Shown here one piece after another: positions 14,337 to 26,543 of a DNA stretch of 64,000 nt. Each line of letters begins with the position of its first letter. Position 1 is the stretch's first letter. This DNA is from Stappia sp. Its GTDB lineage: Bacteria > Pseudomonadota > Alphaproteobacteria > Rhizobiales > Stappiaceae. The DNA lies in the NCBI RefSeq assembly GCF_040110915.1, contig NZ_CP157793.1, positions 818,939 through 882,938 of the forward strand, written 5' to 3'. The position numbers and the translations under genes were made by a program. The notes under the pieces are model-generated. The model saw nothing but the letters and a program-made list of their open reading frames with translations. It had not been told where the DNA came from and ran no database searches.

Positions 14337-14807
14337 ATGGGGCAGGACATCCTATCGATGGAACGCAATACGATGACGTCTGCCCGGACGAATGCAAACC
14401 CGAAATCCCTGATCGACGAGTTGGAGCGCCTGCACCGCAAGGCCGAGACCCTGGCGATTTCCTCGCCCGTCGATTTCCACGTCGAGCGTCGGCTCTTGGA
14501 CATCCTGTCGGAAATGGGGATCGCGGAGACGGAGATCGACCGGGTCGTGTTTCCCTCCGGCCGGCCGGAGGATGTGCGCAGCGCGTCGCGCCTGTCGCTC
14601 GAGCATTCCGACCGCGCCTGCCGCTTCGCCCGTGTCGTGCGCCTCGCGGAGCAGGTGTTCGACAATCACCGGAAGGCGTTCCTGTGGCTGCGCACGCCGA
14701 GCAAGGCGCTGTCGGGCCGGGCGCCCATCGAATGCCTTGGAACGGAAACCGGCGCGAATGCCGTCGAGGATCTTCTCTCGCGCATCGATTTCGGCATGGC
14801 CGCCTGA
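14337..14807 (+). CDS. Xre/MbcA/ParS-type antitoxin (DUF2384)
   Basis: A 156-residue protein whose C-terminal 60 residues carry the toxin-binding domain pattern of Xre/MbcA/ParS antitoxins (RLAEQVFDNHRKAFLWLRTP, then a short LGTETGANAVEDLL element). The N-terminal part should hold the DNA-binding helices. A RES-domain gene follows, making a type II toxin-antitoxin pair. The start is uncertain: ATG 14337 is first, while 14358 and 14373 are in frame. The promoter region contains a CtrA-type site, which is unusual for this class. Confidence 0.78.
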   Translation: MGQDILSMERNTMTSARTNANPKSLIDELERLHRKAETLAISSPVDFHVERRLLDILSEMGIAETEIDRVVFPSGRPEDVRSASRLSLEHSDRACRFARVVRLAEQVFDNHRKAFLWLRTPSKALSGRAPIECLGTETGANAVEDLLSRIDFGMAA

Positions 14808-14942
14808 CGCCCCGCCGTTCTCCCCGTGCCCGGTCGCACCGCCCCCATTCCTGAAACGCCGTTCTGGTCAGGGTGACCGATCGGTGTATGATTCCCCTTG
14901 AATGCCGGCGCGCCTGCCGCGCGCCTGCGGGGGGCGTGTGAC

Positions 14943-15401
14943 ATGCGGGTGTGGCGGCTTTCCAACTATCGCGATCTGAGCGGCCGGGGCGGTCTGGTCG
15001 CCTCCGGGCGCTGGCACAATCGCGGGCGGGCGGTCGTCTATTGCGCCGAGAGCTTTGCCCTCGCGCGGATCGAGGTGGAAGAGGGCCTCGGTCTGCCCCC
15101 GCTTCTGTGGCCCGACAGCTTCTGTCTCCTGCGCATCTCGGTGCCCGCCACCGCGACGGTCGAGGAGCTCGCCCCGCAAGACCTGCCGGATAGCTGGCGC
15201 GACGATCCGCTTGTCACGCGGCGGATCGGCGATGCCTGGCTGCGGGGCACCAGCGCGCCGCTGCTGCGCGTGCCCTCGGCCCGCGCGCAAGGATTCAACT
15301 ACCTGATCAACCCGGTGCACCGGCTGGCGGACTTTCTGGAGGTGGAGCGGGTCTTCACGCTCGACGAAATGCTCGCCGGCGACGTGTCGGAGCGTGGATA
15401 G
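14943..15401 (+). CDS. RES-domain toxin (NAD+ phosphorylase family)
   Basis: A 152-residue RES-family protein. It shows the SGRWHNRGRAVVYCAES block with the conserved Arg, Tyr and Glu, and a late NPVHRLADF element. RES toxins such as MbcT degrade NAD+ by phosphorolysis or hydrolysis, are neutralised by the cognate Xre/ParS protein, and arrest growth when free. The gene starts 135 bases after the antitoxin stop, a larger gap than in most RES-Xre operons. ATG 14943 was chosen from the GGGGGCGTGTG run just upstream. Confidence 0.83.
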   Translation: MRVWRLSNYRDLSGRGGLVASGRWHNRGRAVVYCAESFALARIEVEEGLGLPPLLWPDSFCLLRISVPATATVEELAPQDLPDSWRDDPLVTRRIGDAWLRGTSAPLLRVPSARAQGFNYLINPVHRLADFLEVERVFTLDEMLAGDVSERG

Positions 15402-15424
15402 GCCCGCCCGTTGTCCGCCCCGTC

Positions 15425-15787
15425 TCACGCGCCCTTGCGGCACTCGCGGGTGAAGGTCTGCAGCAGGAAGCCCGACATGTAGGTGAGGAAGGCGCGGCAT
15501 TCCGCCTCGGTGCGGAAGCACCCCTCGCGGGAGTAGGGACGTGTCTTGAAGTCGACCTGCTTGCGCCCGCCGATCAGGCCGCGCCACACGTTGGCGGCGC
15601 CGTATTGCGCGGTCATGCTGCGGCAGTCGTAGCGCGTGCCGTAGGTTTGCGGCACATAGGCCTCGTCGTAGGTCGGCGCGAAGAGAAGCCGTTCGACGAC
15701 CCCGTCGCCGGTCGTGGTCGAGGCGGGCGTGCAGGCGGCAAGGGCGAGACTTGCGGCAAGCACCGTGGCGGTGAAGGATTTGGTCAT
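15425..15787 (-). CDS. Small hypothetical lipoprotein
   Basis: A 120-residue protein with a lipoprotein signal and lipobox LAAC at about residues 16-19. The mature part has four cysteines (DCRS, GCFR, ECRA, ECRK) that could form disulfides in the periplasm. I do not recognise the family. It converges on the RES gene with 23 bases between stops. Confidence 0.65.
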   Translation of the reverse strand: MTKSFTATVLAASLALAACTPASTTTGDGVVERLLFAPTYDEAYVPQTYGTRYDCRSMTAQYGAANVWRGLIGGRKQVDFKTRPYSREGCFRTEAECRAFLTYMSGFLLQTFTRECRKGA

Positions 15788-15910
15788 GCGATCCTCGATC
15801 GAACGGGCAAGGGTGGCGCGCCGCGTCGCCGGACCTGGAGGCGGGGCGGGCGACGGCGTGCCGGCGTGTCCGCGCTAAGACTTCCGCCAACGCGAAACAA
15901 GGACGACGCC

Positions 15911-16591
15911 GTGACGGACAATGCGATCAATGCCGGGACACTGCAAGCCCTGGATCTGCCCGGCGTGCCGCGAGAGATTGCCGCGCGCATCTCCGCCGAG
16001 GCGCAGGTTCTCGACCTGCCGCAGGGGCAAAGGGTGTTCGCGCCCGGCGAGGCCTGCCGGGGGTGGATCCTGGTGCTCGCGGGCAGCGTGCGCGTGACCT
16101 TCACCGCCGACACGGGGCGCGAAATGGTGCTCTACCGCGTCGGCGCGGGGGAGACCTGCGTGCTCACCACGGCGTGTCTCCTCGGCGACGACCTATATGC
16201 GGCGACCGGCGAGACGGAGGCCCCGACACGCGCGCTGATGCTGCCGGCCGGGCGCGTCGCGGCGTTGCTTGACGAGTCGCCCGCCTTCCGGCGGCTGGTG
16301 TTTCGCGGCTTCGGGCATCGGCTGGGCGAGATCCTCAAGACGATGGAGGATGCCGTCTTCCACCGTGTCGACGCCCGGCTGGCGCGCCTGCTGCTGCGCC
16401 GCGCCGGCGGCGACGGTTGTCTGCGGGCCACCCAGGCGGATCTGGCGACCGATCTGGGCACGGCGCGCGAGGTGGTGTCCCGCCTGCTGGCCCGCTGGGC
16501 GGCGCAAGGGATCGTCGACCGGCGCCGGGGCGAAATCGCGGTGCTGGACCGCGCGCGGCTGGAACGCCTGTGTCCGGACGACCCGGCCTGA
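15911..16591 (+). CDS. Crp/Fnr-family transcriptional regulator
   Basis: A 226-residue protein with an N-terminal cyclic-nucleotide-binding-like beta-barrel (about 10-125), a long dimer helix (ILKTMEDAVFHRVDARLARLLL) and a winged HTH with recognition segment DLGTAREVVSRLLARW. There are no N-terminal FNR cysteines. Cys at about residues 45, 80 and 84 could matter for sensing. It starts at GTG 15911 with AAGGA 7 bases upstream. The next gene encodes a DUF2892 membrane protein and a CRP-like palindrome lies between them, a layout resembling E. coli ygaV/ygaP regulation although that regulator is of another family. Confidence 0.85.
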   Translation: MTDNAINAGTLQALDLPGVPREIAARISAEAQVLDLPQGQRVFAPGEACRGWILVLAGSVRVTFTADTGREMVLYRVGAGETCVLTTACLLGDDLYAATGETEAPTRALMLPAGRVAALLDESPAFRRLVFRGFGHRLGEILKTMEDAVFHRVDARLARLLLRRAGGDGCLRATQADLATDLGTAREVVSRLLARWAAQGIVDRRRGEIAVLDRARLERLCPDDPA

Positions 16592-16623
16592 TCCGCCCGT
16601 GTCATGCTCCGGTTCGCATCCTG

Positions 16624-16638
16624 TGTGACCTAGTCACC
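16624..16638. promoter_or_regulatory. CRP/FNR-like palindrome upstream of DUF2892
   Basis: TGTGACCTAGTCACC contains a perfect inverted repeat GTGAC-N3-GTCAC. It resembles the Crp site TGTGA-N6-TCACA but has one base less in the spacer. It lies 33 bases after the crp-type gene and about 105 bases before the DUF2892 start, a position suited to local control by the neighbouring regulator. Confidence 0.5.
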
Positions 16639-16742
16639 GACGCCCGCGCGCCCGGGCGCTAGGGTCGTTCCGTCAGACATCGGCCGCATGTCGGCCCGCG
16701 CGACAGGCGACGGGCGGCACGGCCCGCACAGGAGGCAGTCTC

Positions 16743-16952
16743 ATGGCACTCGTCACCACCAACGTCGGCTCGACCGACCGCATCATCCGCATCGTCGCCG
16801 GACTGGCGCTCATCGCCTTCGCGCTGTTCGGCCCCGCCGACATCGCCTGGAAATGGGTCGGCTGGATTGGCGTCGTGCCGCTGGTCACCGCGTTCCTGCG
16901 CTGGTGCCCGGCCTACACGCTCGTTGGCATGAACACCTGCAAGACGAACTGA
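16743..16952 (+). CDS. DUF2892 (YgaP-like) small membrane protein
   Basis: A 69-residue protein with two transmembrane helices (about 15-31 and 37-52) and the WCPAYTLVGMNTC ending characteristic of DUF2892. Related domains form the membrane anchor of rhodanese YgaP, but no rhodanese domain is present here. CACAGGAGGCAG lies just before the ATG. The function is unknown. Link to the preceding Crp/Fnr regulator is by position. Confidence 0.85.
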   Translation: MALVTTNVGSTDRIIRIVAGLALIAFALFGPADIAWKWVGWIGVVPLVTAFLRWCPAYTLVGMNTCKTN

Positions 16953-16971
16953 GGCGAACTCCTCCCCCTTG

Positions 16972-17046
16972 CCCCGTCGACAAAAGGGGCCCCGTCGACA
17001 ATAGGGGCCCCGTCGACAAAAGGGGGGCCCGATCGACAATAGGGGG
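16972..17046. repeat. Four 18-bp self-complementary tandem repeats
   Basis: Units CCCCGTCGACAAAAGGGG at 16972-16989, 16990-17007 (AAAA to AATA) and 17008-17025, plus a fourth altered unit to 17046. Each unit carries CCCC and GGGG ends around the palindrome GTCGAC, so each can fold alone or pair with its neighbour. The array begins 20 bases after the DUF2892 stop and may act as transcript end or attenuator. Confidence 0.8.
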
Positions 17047-17189
17047 AAAAGGCACGGACCGGCGGCGTCGCCGACCAGCCACGGACGGCGCCGGCGGGCC
17101 TTGCGCGGACCGGAGACGACGGGGTCTCCGGTCCTTCCTTTCGTGCCGACGTCCGGACCCCCGCGCGTCAGCGCTTGCGGCCCTGCGCA

Positions 17190-17753
17190 TCAGCGCTTGC
17201 GGAAGGTCAGATCGACCGTGCCCACGACGATCCCGTACTTCATGACATCGGCCGTGTTGCGCACCGTGCGCGCGTCCACCCTGGTGAGCGTGTCGAAGAA
17301 GCGCAGTGCGACGGGTCCGTCCCCGGTCGCGACCTCGGCGGCATAACTGAAGGTGATGCTCGGGCCCCCGGCGCGGATCGTCACCGGATTGAGCACGTCG
17401 GAGCGGGTGCCGATGTAACGGTCGGCCGCGACCTTCTGGAAGAACCAGACCTTGGTGTCGCGTTCCCCGTCGTCATAGGCGAAATCCTCGCGCAGGCGCA
17501 GGGTGAAGGTCTTCGGGTTCCAGGTCCCGTGCGTCACCACGGTGAACTCCCGGCGCACCCCGGCGATCCCGCTTTCGAACACCCCCTTGCCGACCGTGCG
17601 GCCCTGGAAATACTCCTCCAGAACGAGGGCATCCGATTTGGCCAGAGCGGCCGGGGCGGCAAGGGCCATCGCCGCGAGCGACGACACGACGGCCAGCGCC
17701 GGCCACAGGCGCCGCAATCCGAAAGAGGTGCGGGAAGGAATGGCAAAGGGCAT
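17190..17753 (-). CDS. DUF3833 secreted protein
   Basis: A 187-residue protein with an N-terminal signal sequence (hydrophobic 18-35, cleavage near AALA at 36-38) and the LEEYFQGRTVGKGVFE start of the mature domain typical of DUF3833. It is predicted to be a periplasmic beta-rich, lipocalin-like protein. The function is unknown. No lipobox cysteine is present, unlike many DUF3833 members. Confidence 0.78.
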   Translation of the reverse strand: MPFAIPSRTSFGLRRLWPALAVVSSLAAMALAAPAALAKSDALVLEEYFQGRTVGKGVFESGIAGVRREFTVVTHGTWNPKTFTLRLREDFAYDDGERDTKVWFFQKVAADRYIGTRSDVLNPVTIRAGGPSITFSYAAEVATGDGPVALRFFDTLTRVDARTVRNTADVMKYGIVVGTVDLTFRKR

Positions 17754-17865
17754 GGGCAGGGTCTCCGGGTGAGAATTTGCCCCTGTCTACGTGCCACCCA
17801 CCGCCCCGGATCGCGCGGCCGGATCGCGGCCCGGCGCGCGCCCGGGACCGCGACCGGGAGTGCGG

Positions 17866-20016
17866 TCAGGCCTTGCCGACGACCGACAGCGCGAAGGCGT
17901 AGTTGAGCGCGACTTCCTTCAGGCGGTCGAAGCGGCCCGAGGCCCCGCCGTGGCCGGCGTCCATGTTGGTCTTGAGGAACAGCGGCGCATCGCCGGTCTT
18001 GCGCTCGCGCAGCCGCGCGACCCATTTCGCCGGCTCCCAATAGGTCACGCGCGGATCGGTCAGCCCGCCGACGGCGAGGATCGCCGGATAGGCTTTCGCC
18101 TCGACGTTGTCATAGGGCGAATAGGCGGCGATGACGCGGTAGTCCTCTTCCCGCGCGAGCGGGTTGCCCCACTCGGGCCATTCCGGCGGGGTGAGCGGCA
18201 GCGTCTCGTCGAGCATGGTGTTGAGCACGTCGACGAAGGGCACCTCGGCGATGATCCCGCCGAAGGCGTCGGGCGCCATGTTGGCGACCGCGCCCATCAG
18301 CATGCCGCCGGCCGATCCGCCCTGCGCCACGATCCGCTCCGCCGAGGTGAGGCCCTCGCCCGCCAGATGCCGCGCGGCGGCGATGAAATCGGTGAAGGTG
18401 TTGGCCTTGGTCTCCCGCCGGCCGTTTGCGTACCAGCGAAAGCCCTTGTCCTTGCCGCCGCGGATATGCGCGATCGCATAGACGAAGCCGCGGTCCACCA
18501 GCGACAGGCAATTGGTGTTGAAGCTCGCCGGGATCGTGATGCCGTAGGAGCCGTAGCCGTAGAGCAGGCAGGGCGCGGAGCCGTCGAGCGGCGTGTCCTT
18601 GCGATAAAGCAGCGTGACGGGCACCGTCTCGCCGTCCGCCGCCGGGGCGTGGATGCGCCGGGTGACATAGGCGTCCCTGTCGTGGCCCGAGGGCACCTCC
18701 TGCGTCTTGCGAAGCGTGCGCGCGCGCGTCTCCATGTCGTAGTCGAAGACCTGCGACGGCGTGGTCATCGAGGAATAGGAGAAGCGGATGCGGTTGGTGT
18801 CGAACTCGTAGCCGTCCGAAAGCCCCAGCGAATAGGCCTCCTCGTCGAAGGCGATCGCATGCTCGGTGCCGTCGGCGAGCCGGCGCACGACGATGCGCGG
18901 CAGGCCGTCCTCGCGCTCCAGCCGCACCATGTGCTTGGCATAGACCGTGTGCGACAGGATCAGCCGGCCCGGCACATGCGGCACGAGATCGGACCAGGCG
19001 GCGCGCCCCTGGCCCGCGCGCACATCGGCGAGCCGCGCGGTCGCGATGCGGAAATCCTCCGCCCCGTCGGCATTGGTCAGGATGACGAGCCGGTCGCCGC
19101 CGTCGTCCTCGATGGAATACTCCACCGCCGTCTCGCGCGGGGCCACCAGCAGGGGCGCGGCGGTCGGATCGTCGGCCGGGATGAGCCGGACTTCCGAGGT
19201 TTCATGGTCGTGCACGTCGATGACGATGAAGCGGCCCGACTGGGTCTTGCCCACACCCATGAAGAAGCCGGCGTCCGGCTCCTCGTAGACGAGCACGTCG
19301 TCGGCGACATCCGTGCCGATCTCGTGGCGGAAGAGTTTCGACGGCCGGTGATTGGCGTCGAGGCGGACGTAGAACACATGGCGCCCGCAGGCCGACCACA
19401 CCCCGCCGCCGGCGGTGTCGGGGATGCGGTCCGGCAGGTCTTCCCCGGTCGCGAGATCGCGGATGGACAGGGTGAAGAACTCCGAGCCGGTGTCGTCATG
19501 CGCCCAGGCGAGGCGGCTGTGATCGGGCGCGTGCATCGCGCCGGCGAGGCGGAAATAGGCCTTGCCCTCGGCCTCGCGGTCGCCGTCGATCAGCACCTCC
19601 TCGCGGGCGCTGTCGCTGCCCCCATCCGCGCTTTGCATGTCCTCGCTGTCCATGTCCTCGCGGGGAATGCGCACCAGCCGGGGGTGCTGACCGCCGGTGA
19701 CATAGCGCACGCCGTAGGCATAGGCGCCGTCGGGGGAGGGAACGGAGCTGTCGTCCTCCTTGATGCGGCCCTTCATCTCGGCGAAGAGCGTGTCCTGCAG
19801 GTCCTGCGTGTGGGCGAGCCCGGCCTCGAGATGCGCGTTTTCCGCCTCCAGATAGGCGCGGATGTCGGCGTCGAGCGTGTCGGGCGCGCGCATCACCTCC
19901 TGCCAGTTGTCCGCCCGGAGCCAGGCGTAATCGTCCGTTCGCGTGATGCCGTGGACGGTGTGGGTGACGGGGCGCCTTGCGGCGCGCGGAGCGGGGGTGT
20001 TCGGTCGGTTCAGCAT
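17866..20016 (-). CDS. ptrB: Oligopeptidase B (S9A prolyl-oligopeptidase family)
   Basis: A 716-residue cytoplasmic serine peptidase with an N-terminal seven-bladed propeller and a C-terminal alpha/beta-hydrolase. The catalytic triad is visible: Ser in QGGSAGGML, Asp in GGLTDPRV and His in MDAGHGG. The YGYGSYGI block is typical of the oligopeptidase B branch, which cleaves short peptides after basic residues. The start is ATG 20016. The frame continues upstream into the divergent clpS region without a signal. It is divergent from clpS with 91 bases between them. Confidence 0.92.
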   Translation of the reverse strand: MLNRPNTPAPRAARRPVTHTVHGITRTDDYAWLRADNWQEVMRAPDTLDADIRAYLEAENAHLEAGLAHTQDLQDTLFAEMKGRIKEDDSSVPSPDGAYAYGVRYVTGGQHPRLVRIPREDMDSEDMQSADGGSDSAREEVLIDGDREAEGKAYFRLAGAMHAPDHSRLAWAHDDTGSEFFTLSIRDLATGEDLPDRIPDTAGGGVWSACGRHVFYVRLDANHRPSKLFRHEIGTDVADDVLVYEEPDAGFFMGVGKTQSGRFIVIDVHDHETSEVRLIPADDPTAAPLLVAPRETAVEYSIEDDGGDRLVILTNADGAEDFRIATARLADVRAGQGRAAWSDLVPHVPGRLILSHTVYAKHMVRLEREDGLPRIVVRRLADGTEHAIAFDEEAYSLGLSDGYEFDTNRIRFSYSSMTTPSQVFDYDMETRARTLRKTQEVPSGHDRDAYVTRRIHAPAADGETVPVTLLYRKDTPLDGSAPCLLYGYGSYGITIPASFNTNCLSLVDRGFVYAIAHIRGGKDKGFRWYANGRRETKANTFTDFIAAARHLAGEGLTSAERIVAQGGSAGGMLMGAVANMAPDAFGGIIAEVPFVDVLNTMLDETLPLTPPEWPEWGNPLAREEDYRVIAAYSPYDNVEAKAYPAILAVGGLTDPRVTYWEPAKWVARLRERKTGDAPLFLKTNMDAGHGGASGRFDRLKEVALNYAFALSVVGKA

Positions 20017-20107
20017 GAGGCGGAGGTAGGCGGTTCGCCGCGCGAAGGCAAGGGTCGCGCGCCCGCGCGCGTGCAAATCCGCGCCGCCTGTGATATGAAA
20101 CACGCCC

Positions 20108-20413
20108 ATGACCGACAATGCGACCAAACTGGCGCCCGGAACCAAAACCCGGACGGAGCGTCCGCGCCTCTACAAGGTGCTTCTGGTGAACGACGACTTC
20201 ACTCCGCGCGAATTCGTCGTGGCGGTGCTGAAGGCCGAGTTCCGCATGTCCGACGACGAGGCCTTCAAGGTGATGCTGACCGCCCACCAGCAGGGCGTCT
20301 GCGTCGTCGCGGTCTATCCCCGCGACGTCGCCGAAACCAAGGCCACCCGCGCCAGCGACGCCGCCAAGGCCCACGGCTTCCCCCTGAGGTTCGAGACCGA
20401 ACCGGAGGCGTGA
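20108..20413 (+). CDS. clpS: ATP-dependent Clp protease adaptor ClpS (ClpS2-like)
   Basis: A 101-residue N-recognin that delivers N-degron substrates to ClpAP. The LYKVLLVNDDFTPREFVV stretch holds the NDD residues that contact the N-terminal amino acid, followed by the MLTAHQQG helix and the VAETKA segment. The FRMSDDEAF and GVCVVAVY variants look like the second alphaproteobacterial paralogue (ClpS2) rather than the ClpA-linked ClpS1. No clpA is next to it. Confidence 0.9.
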   Translation: MTDNATKLAPGTKTRTERPRLYKVLLVNDDFTPREFVVAVLKAEFRMSDDEAFKVMLTAHQQGVCVVAVYPRDVAETKATRASDAAKAHGFPLRFETEPEA

Positions 20414-20919
20414 GGGGGATAGCGAGCGGAGTTGCATCCGCGGTGAGGCCCAAGCATCGCACTGTCCGCTAAAGGGATGCGGGAAACATATCCCGGCCGC
20501 GCCGCCCTCCACCTCGGTCGGGGGCGTCATTTGACACAGGACCGCCGCCTGCGCGGTGTCCGTGGTGACCACCAGGCCGAAAGGGCAGCCGGTTTACCTC
20601 CCATTTCGGGGCCGGCCACGCCAGTTAGCGGCGTACCGCCACATCCACCCCACCCACCTGCGTCACCCCGGCCTCCGAGCCGGGGTCCATTGGGGCCCTC
20701 AGCCGGTCCGCGTTAGCGCAACGGCCGCCCGAGATCGGGCGCTCTTGGATACCTCCGCAAGCGTTTCAGCGCGGCGGGCAGGTCGCGTCGCCGGCGCGTT
20801 CCGCCGCCGCCCCGCCCAGAGGGACGTCGGCCGACCCGAGGGCGGCGCAGTCGGGCGCGGGAGCGGCGAGACGCACTGCCGACTCGCCTTCGACGAAGAT
20901 CCCCGGCACAAGTTCCGCC
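20414..20919. other. Intergenic region between clpS and the IS5 remnant
   Basis: About 500 bases. One REP-like palindrome lies at 20661-20705. The stretch 20706-20919 is GC-rich and does not resemble the transposase that begins after it, nor any gene I recognise. Confidence 0.4.
20661..20705. repeat. Short REP-like palindrome
   Basis: GTCACCCCGGC ... GCCGGGGTCCATTGG forms an imperfect hairpin and matches the left half of the 200-bp repeats at 29.6 and 33.4-33.9 kb, including the trailing CCATTGG. Confidence 0.6.
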
Positions 20920-21072
20920 ATGGGTCGAGCGATGCGCCTTGACGTAGCTGCTTTCGATGGAGGTGCTCTTGGTGACCGCGCCCGGACGCCGCGAGCGCTT
21001 CGACCAGATCCGCCCAGAACCGTTTGCGGGACCAGCGGTTGAACCGCTTATAGATCGTCGTCGAAGGCCCAT
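20920..21072 (-). pseudogene. IS5-family transposase remnant (N-terminal half)
   Basis: On the minus strand this stretch encodes the blocks AYGPSTTIYKRFNRWSRKRF, then DLVEALAASG, then (after a frameshift) VTKSTSIESSYVKAHRS. These are the DDE-transposase region around the first catalytic Asp in the IS5/IS1031 group. It breaks off abruptly at both ends. It is about 85-90% identical by eye to the same part of the copy at 23.0-23.16 kb. Confidence 0.75.
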
Positions 21073-21139
21073 AGGCTGTCAGCCGTCGCATTGGCTACCC
21101 TCGTCGCGTTCTGGCTATAATTGAGCCTGGAGCCTAGCC
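21073..21139 (+). mobile_element. Inverted tail of an IS5-family element
   Basis: On the plus strand this reads LSAVALATLVAFWL-stop, the C-terminal end of the same transposase, followed by about 19 bases resembling the end of the copy at 22.7 kb. It is fused head-on to the minus-strand N-terminal remnant at 21072, so a deletion or inversion has joined two oppositely oriented copies. Confidence 0.7.
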
Positions 21140-21195
21140 TATGAACGGGTACATTCAGTGGAGCAGGTCTCTTGCAGTGGCCCGAGTAAAAGCGT

Positions 21196-22668
21196 TTAAG
21201 TTCCAGACAATATTGATTTGATTAAATGGTTCATTGGTGATGAATTAGCGAAATACTCAAGCTTATGATTGCGTGATATCGGCAATAGACTTCTGTGACC
21301 GACCGCACTTGCCCATGCGAGCCAATCAGAACGGCCAGCAACAAGTTGTTCGTCACGCATTTCCACAAGCCCAAATCGGTTGTCGGAGATTTCCAAAATC
21401 TTGGCCTTTGAGATAATTGAAGCATTCGGATGATTGTAGAGCCTTGAAATGATTTCAGGGGCGTATTTTGTGTTCATCGCATAGTCTTGCAAAATCCAAG
21501 CAAACCAGAATATTTGATATTCTTGCAAGCCACCGTAATAAGTGGCTGCAGAAATCATTTCTCCGATAAAATCATTATCTTCGATGTGCTTGCAGAATGA
21601 CCAAATGTTTTTGGCCAAGTGGGGGAAGCTCGTGGCAAAGTGCGCAAGGTGAGGCTGCACTTCCTCGGGATGGTCACGAAAAAGGCTCAGGACAAGCTCA
21701 GCGTCTTCTTCCTCAAGGTGCCGCGATTTTAGGAGTTCTCGTAGGTATTCAAGTTCTTTATCTGTAATCTGAATTTCTTCAAACGCAGATTCAAAGTCAT
21801 CCAGATATACGAGACGCGCAGCCTTTCTGCGTTTGGCGAGCAAGTTGGCCTTCACTTCGTCAATGTTATCTTCGACTTGTGCGGCGACAGCGCCGCCAGC
21901 AACAGTCTTGCTGGGGTTGACCGTCAAACCCTTCTGGCCAAGTAATTTTTGTATCAAATAAAAATCTTCTTTCAGCGTTTCTTGATCGTCTGAGTATAGG
22001 ACAAAGTCATCCATGAAACGGACAACAGCGCTAGACTTAATTCCGTGGTGCTGTTCGATAAATCGCAGAAAGTCACTGCCGACCATTTTGGCGGGGTACA
22101 TTCCCTGCGGCCAACAGTCGATGCTCCGCCCTGAGTTGCTTTGCCTCAAATATGTGCCAAGGGCGCTCACGTCGTCCATATCGACACCCAGGTTGGCAAA
22201 CCATGCAACAATGTCGTGGTGGTAAATGCCGTTGAAATATGAAGCGACATCAAAGCTCAAAGAATGGTCGAACTTTGCAGCATATGCGACAACTGCTTTC
22301 TTGTATCCCGTATAGGAAGCTGTTGCGGGAATAGGTTTCCCATCTTCAAAGCGATATCCGAAGTGCTTTTTGTCATTGTGGAAAGGCTTGCGAAACTTTG
22401 AACGATTTCGGAAGACTACGTCATACAGAAAGAACTCAGACACAGGGTCAAGCTTCACAGTTCGACGAAGATGGTTCCGAGGCTTTGACGCATATACGCG
22501 CGTCTGCGCGAGAAATTGGTAGGATTTGTCTTCGTCTGATTTGCTCAAACACCTTTGAATATGAGAACTAATTTCAACTGCTCCGTTGCCAATGAGAAAT
22601 CGGCACGTTTCCATCGGAAACAGTGTGCTGGTGAAATCGTATTCGAAAAATTCTCTGGACGTCTGCAT
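21196..22668 (-). CDS. Reverse transcriptase, Abi/UG (defence-associated) type
   Basis: A 490-residue RT. Motif A is FDVASYF (139-145), motif B has PQG (187-189), the catalytic motif C is FMDD (218-221) instead of YADD, and motif D is KGLTVNPSKT (246-255). Residues 290-490 look all-helical with repeated short helices, as in the HEAT-like C-terminal part of Abi and UG/DRT antiviral RTs. There is no maturase (X/HNH) domain and no msr/msd is seen, so a group II intron or typical retron is unlikely. I cannot assign a DRT subtype. Base composition is far more A+T-rich than the neighbours, indicating transfer. ATG 22668 lacks a clear ribosome-binding site. The gene sits between inverted IS5 ends. 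Confidence 0.85.
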   Translation of the reverse strand: MQTSREFFEYDFTSTLFPMETCRFLIGNGAVEISSHIQRCLSKSDEDKSYQFLAQTRVYASKPRNHLRRTVKLDPVSEFFLYDVVFRNRSKFRKPFHNDKKHFGYRFEDGKPIPATASYTGYKKAVVAYAAKFDHSLSFDVASYFNGIYHHDIVAWFANLGVDMDDVSALGTYLRQSNSGRSIDCWPQGMYPAKMVGSDFLRFIEQHHGIKSSAVVRFMDDFVLYSDDQETLKEDFYLIQKLLGQKGLTVNPSKTVAGGAVAAQVEDNIDEVKANLLAKRRKAARLVYLDDFESAFEEIQITDKELEYLRELLKSRHLEEEDAELVLSLFRDHPEEVQPHLAHFATSFPHLAKNIWSFCKHIEDNDFIGEMISAATYYGGLQEYQIFWFAWILQDYAMNTKYAPEIISRLYNHPNASIISKAKILEISDNRFGLVEMRDEQLVAGRSDWLAWASAVGHRSLLPISRNHKLEYFANSSPMNHLIKSILSGT

Positions 22669-22717
22669 GGCAACACGCGTGGCACAAATCTGTTTGATTG
22701 TTAAGCTCTAGACTCAA

Positions 22718-23315
22718 TTATAGCCAGAACGCGACGAGGTTAGCCAAGGCGACGGCGGAAAGAAAGTTCCTGGCGAGTTTGTTGTAGCGGGTTGCGACAC
22801 GGCGAAAATCCTTCAGGCGGCAAAAGGCGTTCTCGATGAGATGTCGGCTCTTGTAGCGGGACTTGTCATAACGGATGGCGCGCTTTCGGTTGGAACGACC
22901 GGGAATGACCGGGATGATTGCGCCCTGGCGCGAGCGCTTTCGCAGACTGTTGGCGTAATAGCCCTTGTGGGCGAGCAGTTATTTCGCCCCCTCTTCCGCC
23001 ATAGGCCGAGCGATGCGCCTTGACGTAGGTGCTGTCGATGGAGGTGCTTTTGGTGACCGTGCCGGACGCCGCGAGCGCTTCGACTAGGTCCGTCCAGAAC
23101 CGTTTGCGGGACCATCGGTTGAAGCGGTTGTAGATCATCGTCGAAGGCCCATAGTCTGCCGGACAATTGCACTACCTGCAGCACACTTTGAGCACATGGA
23201 TAATGCCGGAAATCACCCGACGGTCATCGACCCGGCGCGCGCCGCCCTTGTTCCTCGGCAAGAGCGGTTCGATGACCGCCCATCGCTCATCCGACAACCA
23301 AAACAAGCGCCCCAT
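22718..23315 (-). pseudogene. IS5-family transposase, internally deleted and frameshifted
   Basis: The minus strand encodes the N-terminus (MGRLFWLSDERWAVIEPLLP), the AYGPSTMIYNRFNRWSRKRF block, VTKSTSIDSTYVKAHRSAYGG, then after a jump KGYYANSL and the C-terminal KDFRRVATRYNKLARNFLSA...LVAFWL-stop. The middle (catalytic domain after HRSAYGG) is missing and the frame is broken at several points, including near 23165-23180, so it cannot be active. Its 3' end, outward from 22718, is the inverted partner of the tail at 21.1 kb. Confidence 0.8.
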
Positions 23316-23462
23316 CCAAGCCACCGCCCCATTGATTGAAAATCTTGAAGCTGGCTTGGTGCGTTAAATCAATACGATCAATAGGTTTTGACCCTATATC
23401 CCATTCTCATCTACCAACTAGCGTTTTCGGCTCCCTCAGGAAAGTGTGCCGCGTAATGCCCC

Positions 23463-26543
<3,081 letters not shown>

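Follow-up and report, generated by a model that had tools for sequence, protein, structure and literature searches.

The 64,000-nucleotide stretch of Stappia sp. DNA analysed here (the window) contains a reverse transcriptase (RT) gene that lies between clpS and uvrB in a GC-rich chromosome, with pieces of old insertion sequences around it. The locus raises the question of which RT family the gene belongs to, how it came to this site and how its product might act. We refer to the gene as drt5, for reasons given below, and its features are listed in Table 1.

Table 1. Features of the drt5 locus, in window coordinates
Feature	Position	Strand	Remarks
drt5 (DRT type 5 / UG16 reverse transcriptase)	21196..22668	-	Intact, 490 aa; from the ORF, profiles, alignment and dN/dS
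Codons of RT motif C, FMDD (residues 218-221)	22006..22017	-	From the sequence; invariant in 8/8 aligned Drt5 proteins
C-terminal half, residues 271-490	21196..21858	-	Helical by prediction; Drt5 models are its only PADLOC matches
Insertion-sequence end just upstream of drt5	22702..22762		Inverted copy of 21076-21136, 61 nt, 89% complementary
Inverted insertion-sequence end just downstream of drt5	21076..21136		61 nt; pairs with 22702-22762
Decayed IS4/5-type insertion sequence	22705..23345	-	Matches the apparently whole L043 copy at the same site
Second fragment of that insertion sequence	20913..21078	-	About 90% identical to 22994-23158

The open reading frame of drt5 starts with ATG and is uninterrupted, with no internal stops. 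The RT motifs named in the first-pass annotation are all present: FDVASYF at residues 139-145, PQG at 187-189 and FMDD at 218-221. In an alignment of eight Drt5 proteins F139, D140, A142, Y144, F145, P187, G189, F218, M219, D220 and D221 are invariant, the catalytic residues D140, D220 and D221 among them. Pfam places RVT_1 on residues 128-257 (43.3 bits; cut-off 29.6) as the sole match at E<=1. No maturase, nitrilase or phosphohydrolase domain is found at that threshold; the annotation of an RT without a maturase domain is thus upheld.

A search of the protein against RT families, as the first-pass annotation had proposed, identifies it clearly. With hmmscan, the PADLOC model for Drt5 (PDLC02181) matches residues 2-487 with 674 bits (E = 4e-203), and the NCBIfam equivalog NF041750.1 (antiviral reverse transcriptase Drt5), for which the curated cut-off is 550 bits, matches residues 7-487 with 666.2. 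The next families in PADLOC are Drt8 (PDLC03783, 86 bits) and RT_UG20 (PDLC03758, 79 bits), which leaves Drt5 nearly 600 bits ahead of any other. Both resemble the protein over much of its length, but far more weakly than Drt5 and with no match to residues 271-490. The N-terminal 270 residues on their own have Drt5 as their best match with many UG RTs behind it, whereas the C-terminal 220 (residues 271-490) match the Drt5 models (242 bits) and nothing else in PADLOC at E<=1. The likeness to DRT5 therefore takes in nearly the whole length, the RT motifs and the C-terminal half. Within the RT part there are also PADLOC matches to Drt6 (E 6.5e-11), Drt4 (E 3.4e-8) and Abi-P2 (E 2.5e-7), all of them outscored by RT_UG20, UG31, UG19, UG33, UG21 and UG32. 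According to the accessible part of PMC7699616, DRT type 5 is UG16 in Gao's numbering. Because the Drt5 models of two libraries match, far above the curated cut-off, the placement is resolved, and the gene almost certainly belongs to DRT type 5 (UG16), an anti-phage RT family that already has a name. The first-pass annotation had held that no named DRT type could be assigned, and this no longer stands; its broader reading as a defence RT of Abi/UG type agrees with the matches in both libraries, the antiviral function being predicted from family membership.

Two other identities have to be weighed against DRT5. There is a weak match to the group II model group_II_RT_mat (24.5 bits), and the group II intron maturase 6me0 is found by sequence profile (E 0.0023), as might be expected if this were the RT of a group II intron or of a retron, with a cognate RNA of its own. 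The maturase model (TIGR04416), however, has a cut-off of 300 bits, and there is no match in Rfam at E<=1 across positions 20400-23600 and hence no intron or msr RNA. Given the missing maturase domain and the lead of the Drt5 model, this identity, which the first-pass annotation had itself raised, is refuted by the profile searches and has next to no chance of being correct. The second concerns the name. Two proteins called DRT5S and DRT5L carry out protein-primed synthesis and are placed in class 3 in the accessible text of PMC13275509, and on the shared name the window protein might be thought to be a class 3 DRT as well. In the same text the defining mark of class 3 is a nitrilase or phosphohydrolase domain, and the window protein differs from DRT1 and the class 3 UG RTs in having neither (RVT_1 only, Pfam E<=1), which makes membership of class 3 very improbable. 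The shared name is probably a numbering clash, DRT5S and DRT5L belonging to UG5, although the accessible text of PMC13275509 contains neither 'UG5' nor 'UG16'. On this reading the biochemistry of DRT5S and DRT5L should not be transferred to Drt5/UG16.

We searched several collections for relatives of the DRT5 protein. Among GTDB contigs 24 stretches matched the search pattern and five of these, in four loci, encode a relative. The close ones are in Thioclava SK-1 (92% identity; locus L003), a Rhodobacteraceae MAG (88%; L001) and a Paracoccus MAG (85%), and Cochlodiniinecator has a 37-residue remnant. Plasmids have relatives in 4 of 72,556 records (42-52% identity); three of the four are annotated as drt5, and those that are 51-52% identical carry this name in public annotation. 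No relative was found in 50,697 phage records. There is one among 69 candidate stretches of viral contigs (40% identity), and further protein and pattern scans of viral contigs gave the same contig again or no match. The window protein groups with the copies that are 85-92% identical, in contrast with the DRT5 members on plasmids and the viral contig, which are 39-53% identical to it in the aligned set.

In a sample of genomes from the order, 13 of 397 match the window protein at E<=0.001 and only the window's own genome does so at full length. One genome (G375) has a drt5 copy in three pieces, two of them with a stop, and another (G366) has a C-terminal remnant; the other ten matches are partial, around the RT domain, and 22-29% identical. 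A possible fusion protein in G366 (L007) was rejected: the long frame that joins the C-terminal remnant overlaps a 465-aa ORF in another frame, and we read it as a product of chance. The Drt5 model itself matches one of 14 genomes of the genus and one of 87 of the family (E<=1e-20) and one of 398 drawn from the phylum (E<=1e-40). These samples overlap, and in each the match is the window's own genome. This suggests that the host most likely gained drt5 horizontally. The GC content of drt5 is 45.6% (GC3 0.487) compared with 68.8% (GC3 0.905) for uvrB and 66% (GC3 0.882) for clpS, and both the composition and the distribution are in line with the mobile, horizontally acquired gene of the first-pass annotation. 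That annotation had also described a low-GC island. In 500-base windows GC is 0.46-0.57 over positions 21000-23499, which hold drt5 and its adjacent flanks, and at least 0.65 in all the remaining windows of 14500-24999; the low GC is therefore real, but the "island" is essentially one gene beside insertion-sequence remnants.

The gene order clpS-uvrB is kept in all four of the genus genomes examined (of 13 others), none of which (L042, L043, L044, L045) has a match to the Drt5 model. In L043 this site is occupied by an insertion sequence of about 778 bp that looks complete and encodes DUF4096 and DDE_Tnp_1 transposase domains, and L045 has a shortened copy. The site in L044 is without the element and there is no match to it in L042, so this IS4/5-type element is present at the clpS-uvrB site in two of the four relatives. 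The gap, at window positions 20413-23463, thus contains the insertion sequence whole, shortened or not at all in the four genomes, and because it varies in this way it may be a recurrent insertion site. In the window, two inverted 61-nt ends of the element bracket drt5, and the upstream one lies about 35-45 bp from the start codon. A search for the element in the window's genome, in which 40 of 70 first-look candidates were scored, found it only in its three places at this locus. The drt5 gene may have been carried in on a composite transposon or have entered through recombination with the resident element, and we favour neither route.

A gene left between the remnants of such elements could be a relic, stranded and unexpressed and without a present function. 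There are only element remnants around drt5, and a promoter search upstream of it found no promoter-like site (two sites in the stretch against 1.9 expected, which is the chance level). Broken or partial copies also exist elsewhere, in G375, G366 and L004. Against this, the ORF is of full length without stops and the divergence from the Thioclava copy is mostly synonymous (dN 0.041, dS 0.425). Pairwise dN/dS is 0.097 against this copy (L003), 0.075 against L001 and 0.055 against L002; the ratios rest on these three close relatives, distant ones having given no usable dS. The ratios show selection for the protein, part of which may have been exerted in other hosts, and we regard a relic as unlikely. 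On sequence grounds a chance origin of the gene is excluded, both by the match to the family model (E = 4e-203) and by the low dN/dS.

The next question is whether the DRT5 protein needs a partner. Several UG RTs need an RNA, and the first-pass annotation had suggested a protein plus an upstream RNA as one possibility. At the DNA level the nearest relative, L003, resembles the window over drt5 itself, 35 bp upstream and 16 bp downstream, and no further. We compared the 600-bp flanks of eight Drt5 genes (E<=0.01) and found none shared between the window and any relative. The one upstream flank that is shared is that of L023 and L024, which have similar plasmid neighbourhoods and share the downstream flank too; further matches are insertion-sequence pieces within the window. 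With no conservation in these flanks and no match in Rfam, nothing points to an RNA partner and the suggestion of an upstream RNA is not borne out, although there may be an RNA that is absent from Rfam and particular to the window locus. The same data bear on the idea that DRT5 works like the class 2 DRTs (DRT2, DRT9) and copies a non-coding RNA encoded nearby. The mechanism of DRT5 is left open in the accessible text of PMC13213688, which would leave room for it. However, the insertion-sequence end close to the start codon, the short reach of the similarity to L003 and the confinement of a shared upstream flank to L023 and L024 make a class 2-like mode of action improbable. The flank comparison also gave a weak match (74 columns, 72%) downstream of drt5 between L001 (9482-9555) and L002 (9464-9531), whose insertion sites differ, and this is possibly a trace of the end of a mobile unit.

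Protein partners are likewise not apparent. In the window the neighbours of drt5 are the insertion-sequence remnants, clpS and uvrB, and no partner is found at the locus, in keeping with the first-pass description of a single gene. No neighbour common to the carrier loci was seen in the ORF lists, part of the neighbours having been profile-scanned, and this lack of a shared neighbour fits a self-sufficient gene. A conserved ATPase partner was considered and rejected: the gene upstream of drt5 in L023 and L024 is HerA, which forms a separate defence pair with SIR2 in PADLOC, and inspection by eye of the ORF lists of L001, L002, L003, L025 and L046, in which few ORFs were profile-scanned, showed no ATPase partner. 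Gao et al. reportedly tested a DRT5 representative, and DRT5 is said to be a single gene without an RNA or protein partner.

The first-pass annotation had also described about 200 helical residues at the C terminus. An AlphaFold2 model, built on five sequences, has a mean pLDDT of 49.2 and values below 50 for residues 1-226 (the RT half). Residues 291-420 are the only part that is fairly confident throughout (block pLDDT 68-90) and they are predicted to be mostly helical, so the description is supported for this part but the rest of the model is poor. This helical part aligns with DRT4 (9vdv; Z 8.0, rmsd 4.5, 138 residues) and DRT6 (9wy8; Z 7.5, rmsd 3.5, 129 residues), in both cases at a similar position in the chain, just after the RT domain. 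HEAT/ARM and designed repeats, though unrelated, reach equal or better scores, and because of these ties in Z the solenoid matches do not single out an Abi fold. Foldseek found no match to the model of the protein at E<=0.001. By sequence profile the best of the solved structures is 7r08 (E 2.7e-4), which we take to be Abi-P2, and it is followed by 9wy8 (E 5.6e-4) and then by 6me0 and the bacterial RT 9ioa (both E 2.3e-3).

How might the protein act? We consider it likely, by analogy, that the horizontally acquired gene encodes a single-gene anti-phage RT, an abortive-infection polymerase like the class 1 Abi RTs, and UG16 (DRT5) is presumably counted in class 1. In the accessible part of PMC9508834, AbiK and Abi-P2 are oligomers with an RT lobe and a helical lobe that carry out tyrosine-primed, template-independent DNA synthesis, the priming tyrosines being residues 44 and 61, respectively. 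DRT4, also a single-gene DRT, makes random single-stranded DNA, and a phage-triggered factor (ORF55) lets this DNA accumulate (PMC13213688, accessible text). As of 2026 no dedicated mechanism is established for DRT5, as far as the accessible texts of PMC13213688 and PMC13314766 go, and our literature search, mostly of open-access papers, found none devoted to a UG16 protein.

The RT lobe of the window protein is related to those of class 1 (AbiK, Abi-P2, DRT4, DRT6), a helical lobe is predicted after the RT domain and no RNA partner is seen. Because the protein resembles AbiK, Abi-P2 and DRT4 in its RT, in its predicted helical tail and in showing no partner, a class-1-like mechanism is our best guess, and we favour it slightly. 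By this mechanism the RT lobe and the C-terminal helical lobe would form an oligomer, the enzyme would prime on one of its own residues and its product would be untemplated single-stranded DNA. Phage infection would stabilise or unleash this synthesis, and growth arrest before phage release would amount to abortive infection. Tyrosines Y59, Y82, Y105, Y119 and Y122 are invariant in all eight aligned Drt5 proteins. Y59 is a candidate for the priming residue and no more than that: by number it is near residue 44 of AbiK and residue 61 of Abi-P2, but numbering alone is no evidence.

There is also a difference from class 1, in that none of the class 1 models in PADLOC matches the C-terminal half of the window protein at E<=1. 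The family could have a DNA product or a means of phage sensing unlike those of any described DRT, by way of its own C-terminal helical domain, which matches no other PADLOC model; the window copy would then serve well as an example. We regard this possibility as unlikely.

With the placement that was left open earlier now settled as DRT5, the window gene is a further member of a known family and as such an ordinary find. As the mechanism of DRT5 is called unestablished in 2026, a well-behaved new member is of modest practical value. What the loci do show is how drt5, a rare defence gene, travels. Of the close copies, the one in the window has insertion-sequence ends beside it, that of Thioclava is next to a tRNA gene and an integrase, and that of the Rhodobacteraceae MAG is surrounded by complex I genes; the distant forms occur on plasmids, where HerA defence genes adjoin them, and on a contig that also carries genes for phage packaging. 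In Thioclava (L003) the genes ahead of drt5 are one for tRNA-Ser and one for an integrase. In L001 drt5 is flanked on one side by Oxidored_q4, followed by a flavodoxin-like gene, and on the other by Oxidored_q6 and Complex1_30kDa. It thus stands within the respiratory complex I cluster (L001:6600-11044), and there is no mobility gene among the four neighbouring ORFs scanned. As two of the GTDB relatives are metagenome bins, the neighbourhoods of the Rhodobacteraceae and Paracoccus MAG copies call for caution. On the Phaeobacter inhibens plasmid (L023:2513-7455) SIR2 and HerA are just upstream and drt5 comes directly after them, HerA being seemingly split over separate frames. L024 also has HerA upstream, and its stretch opens at the start of the record, so that genes before HerA are out of view. 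Finally, the Drt5 protein of the viral contig (L046:756-9589) is 39-40% identical to the window protein and is encoded on 11.5 kb together with ParA-like, portal and terminase genes; this is probably a prophage-borne defence gene.
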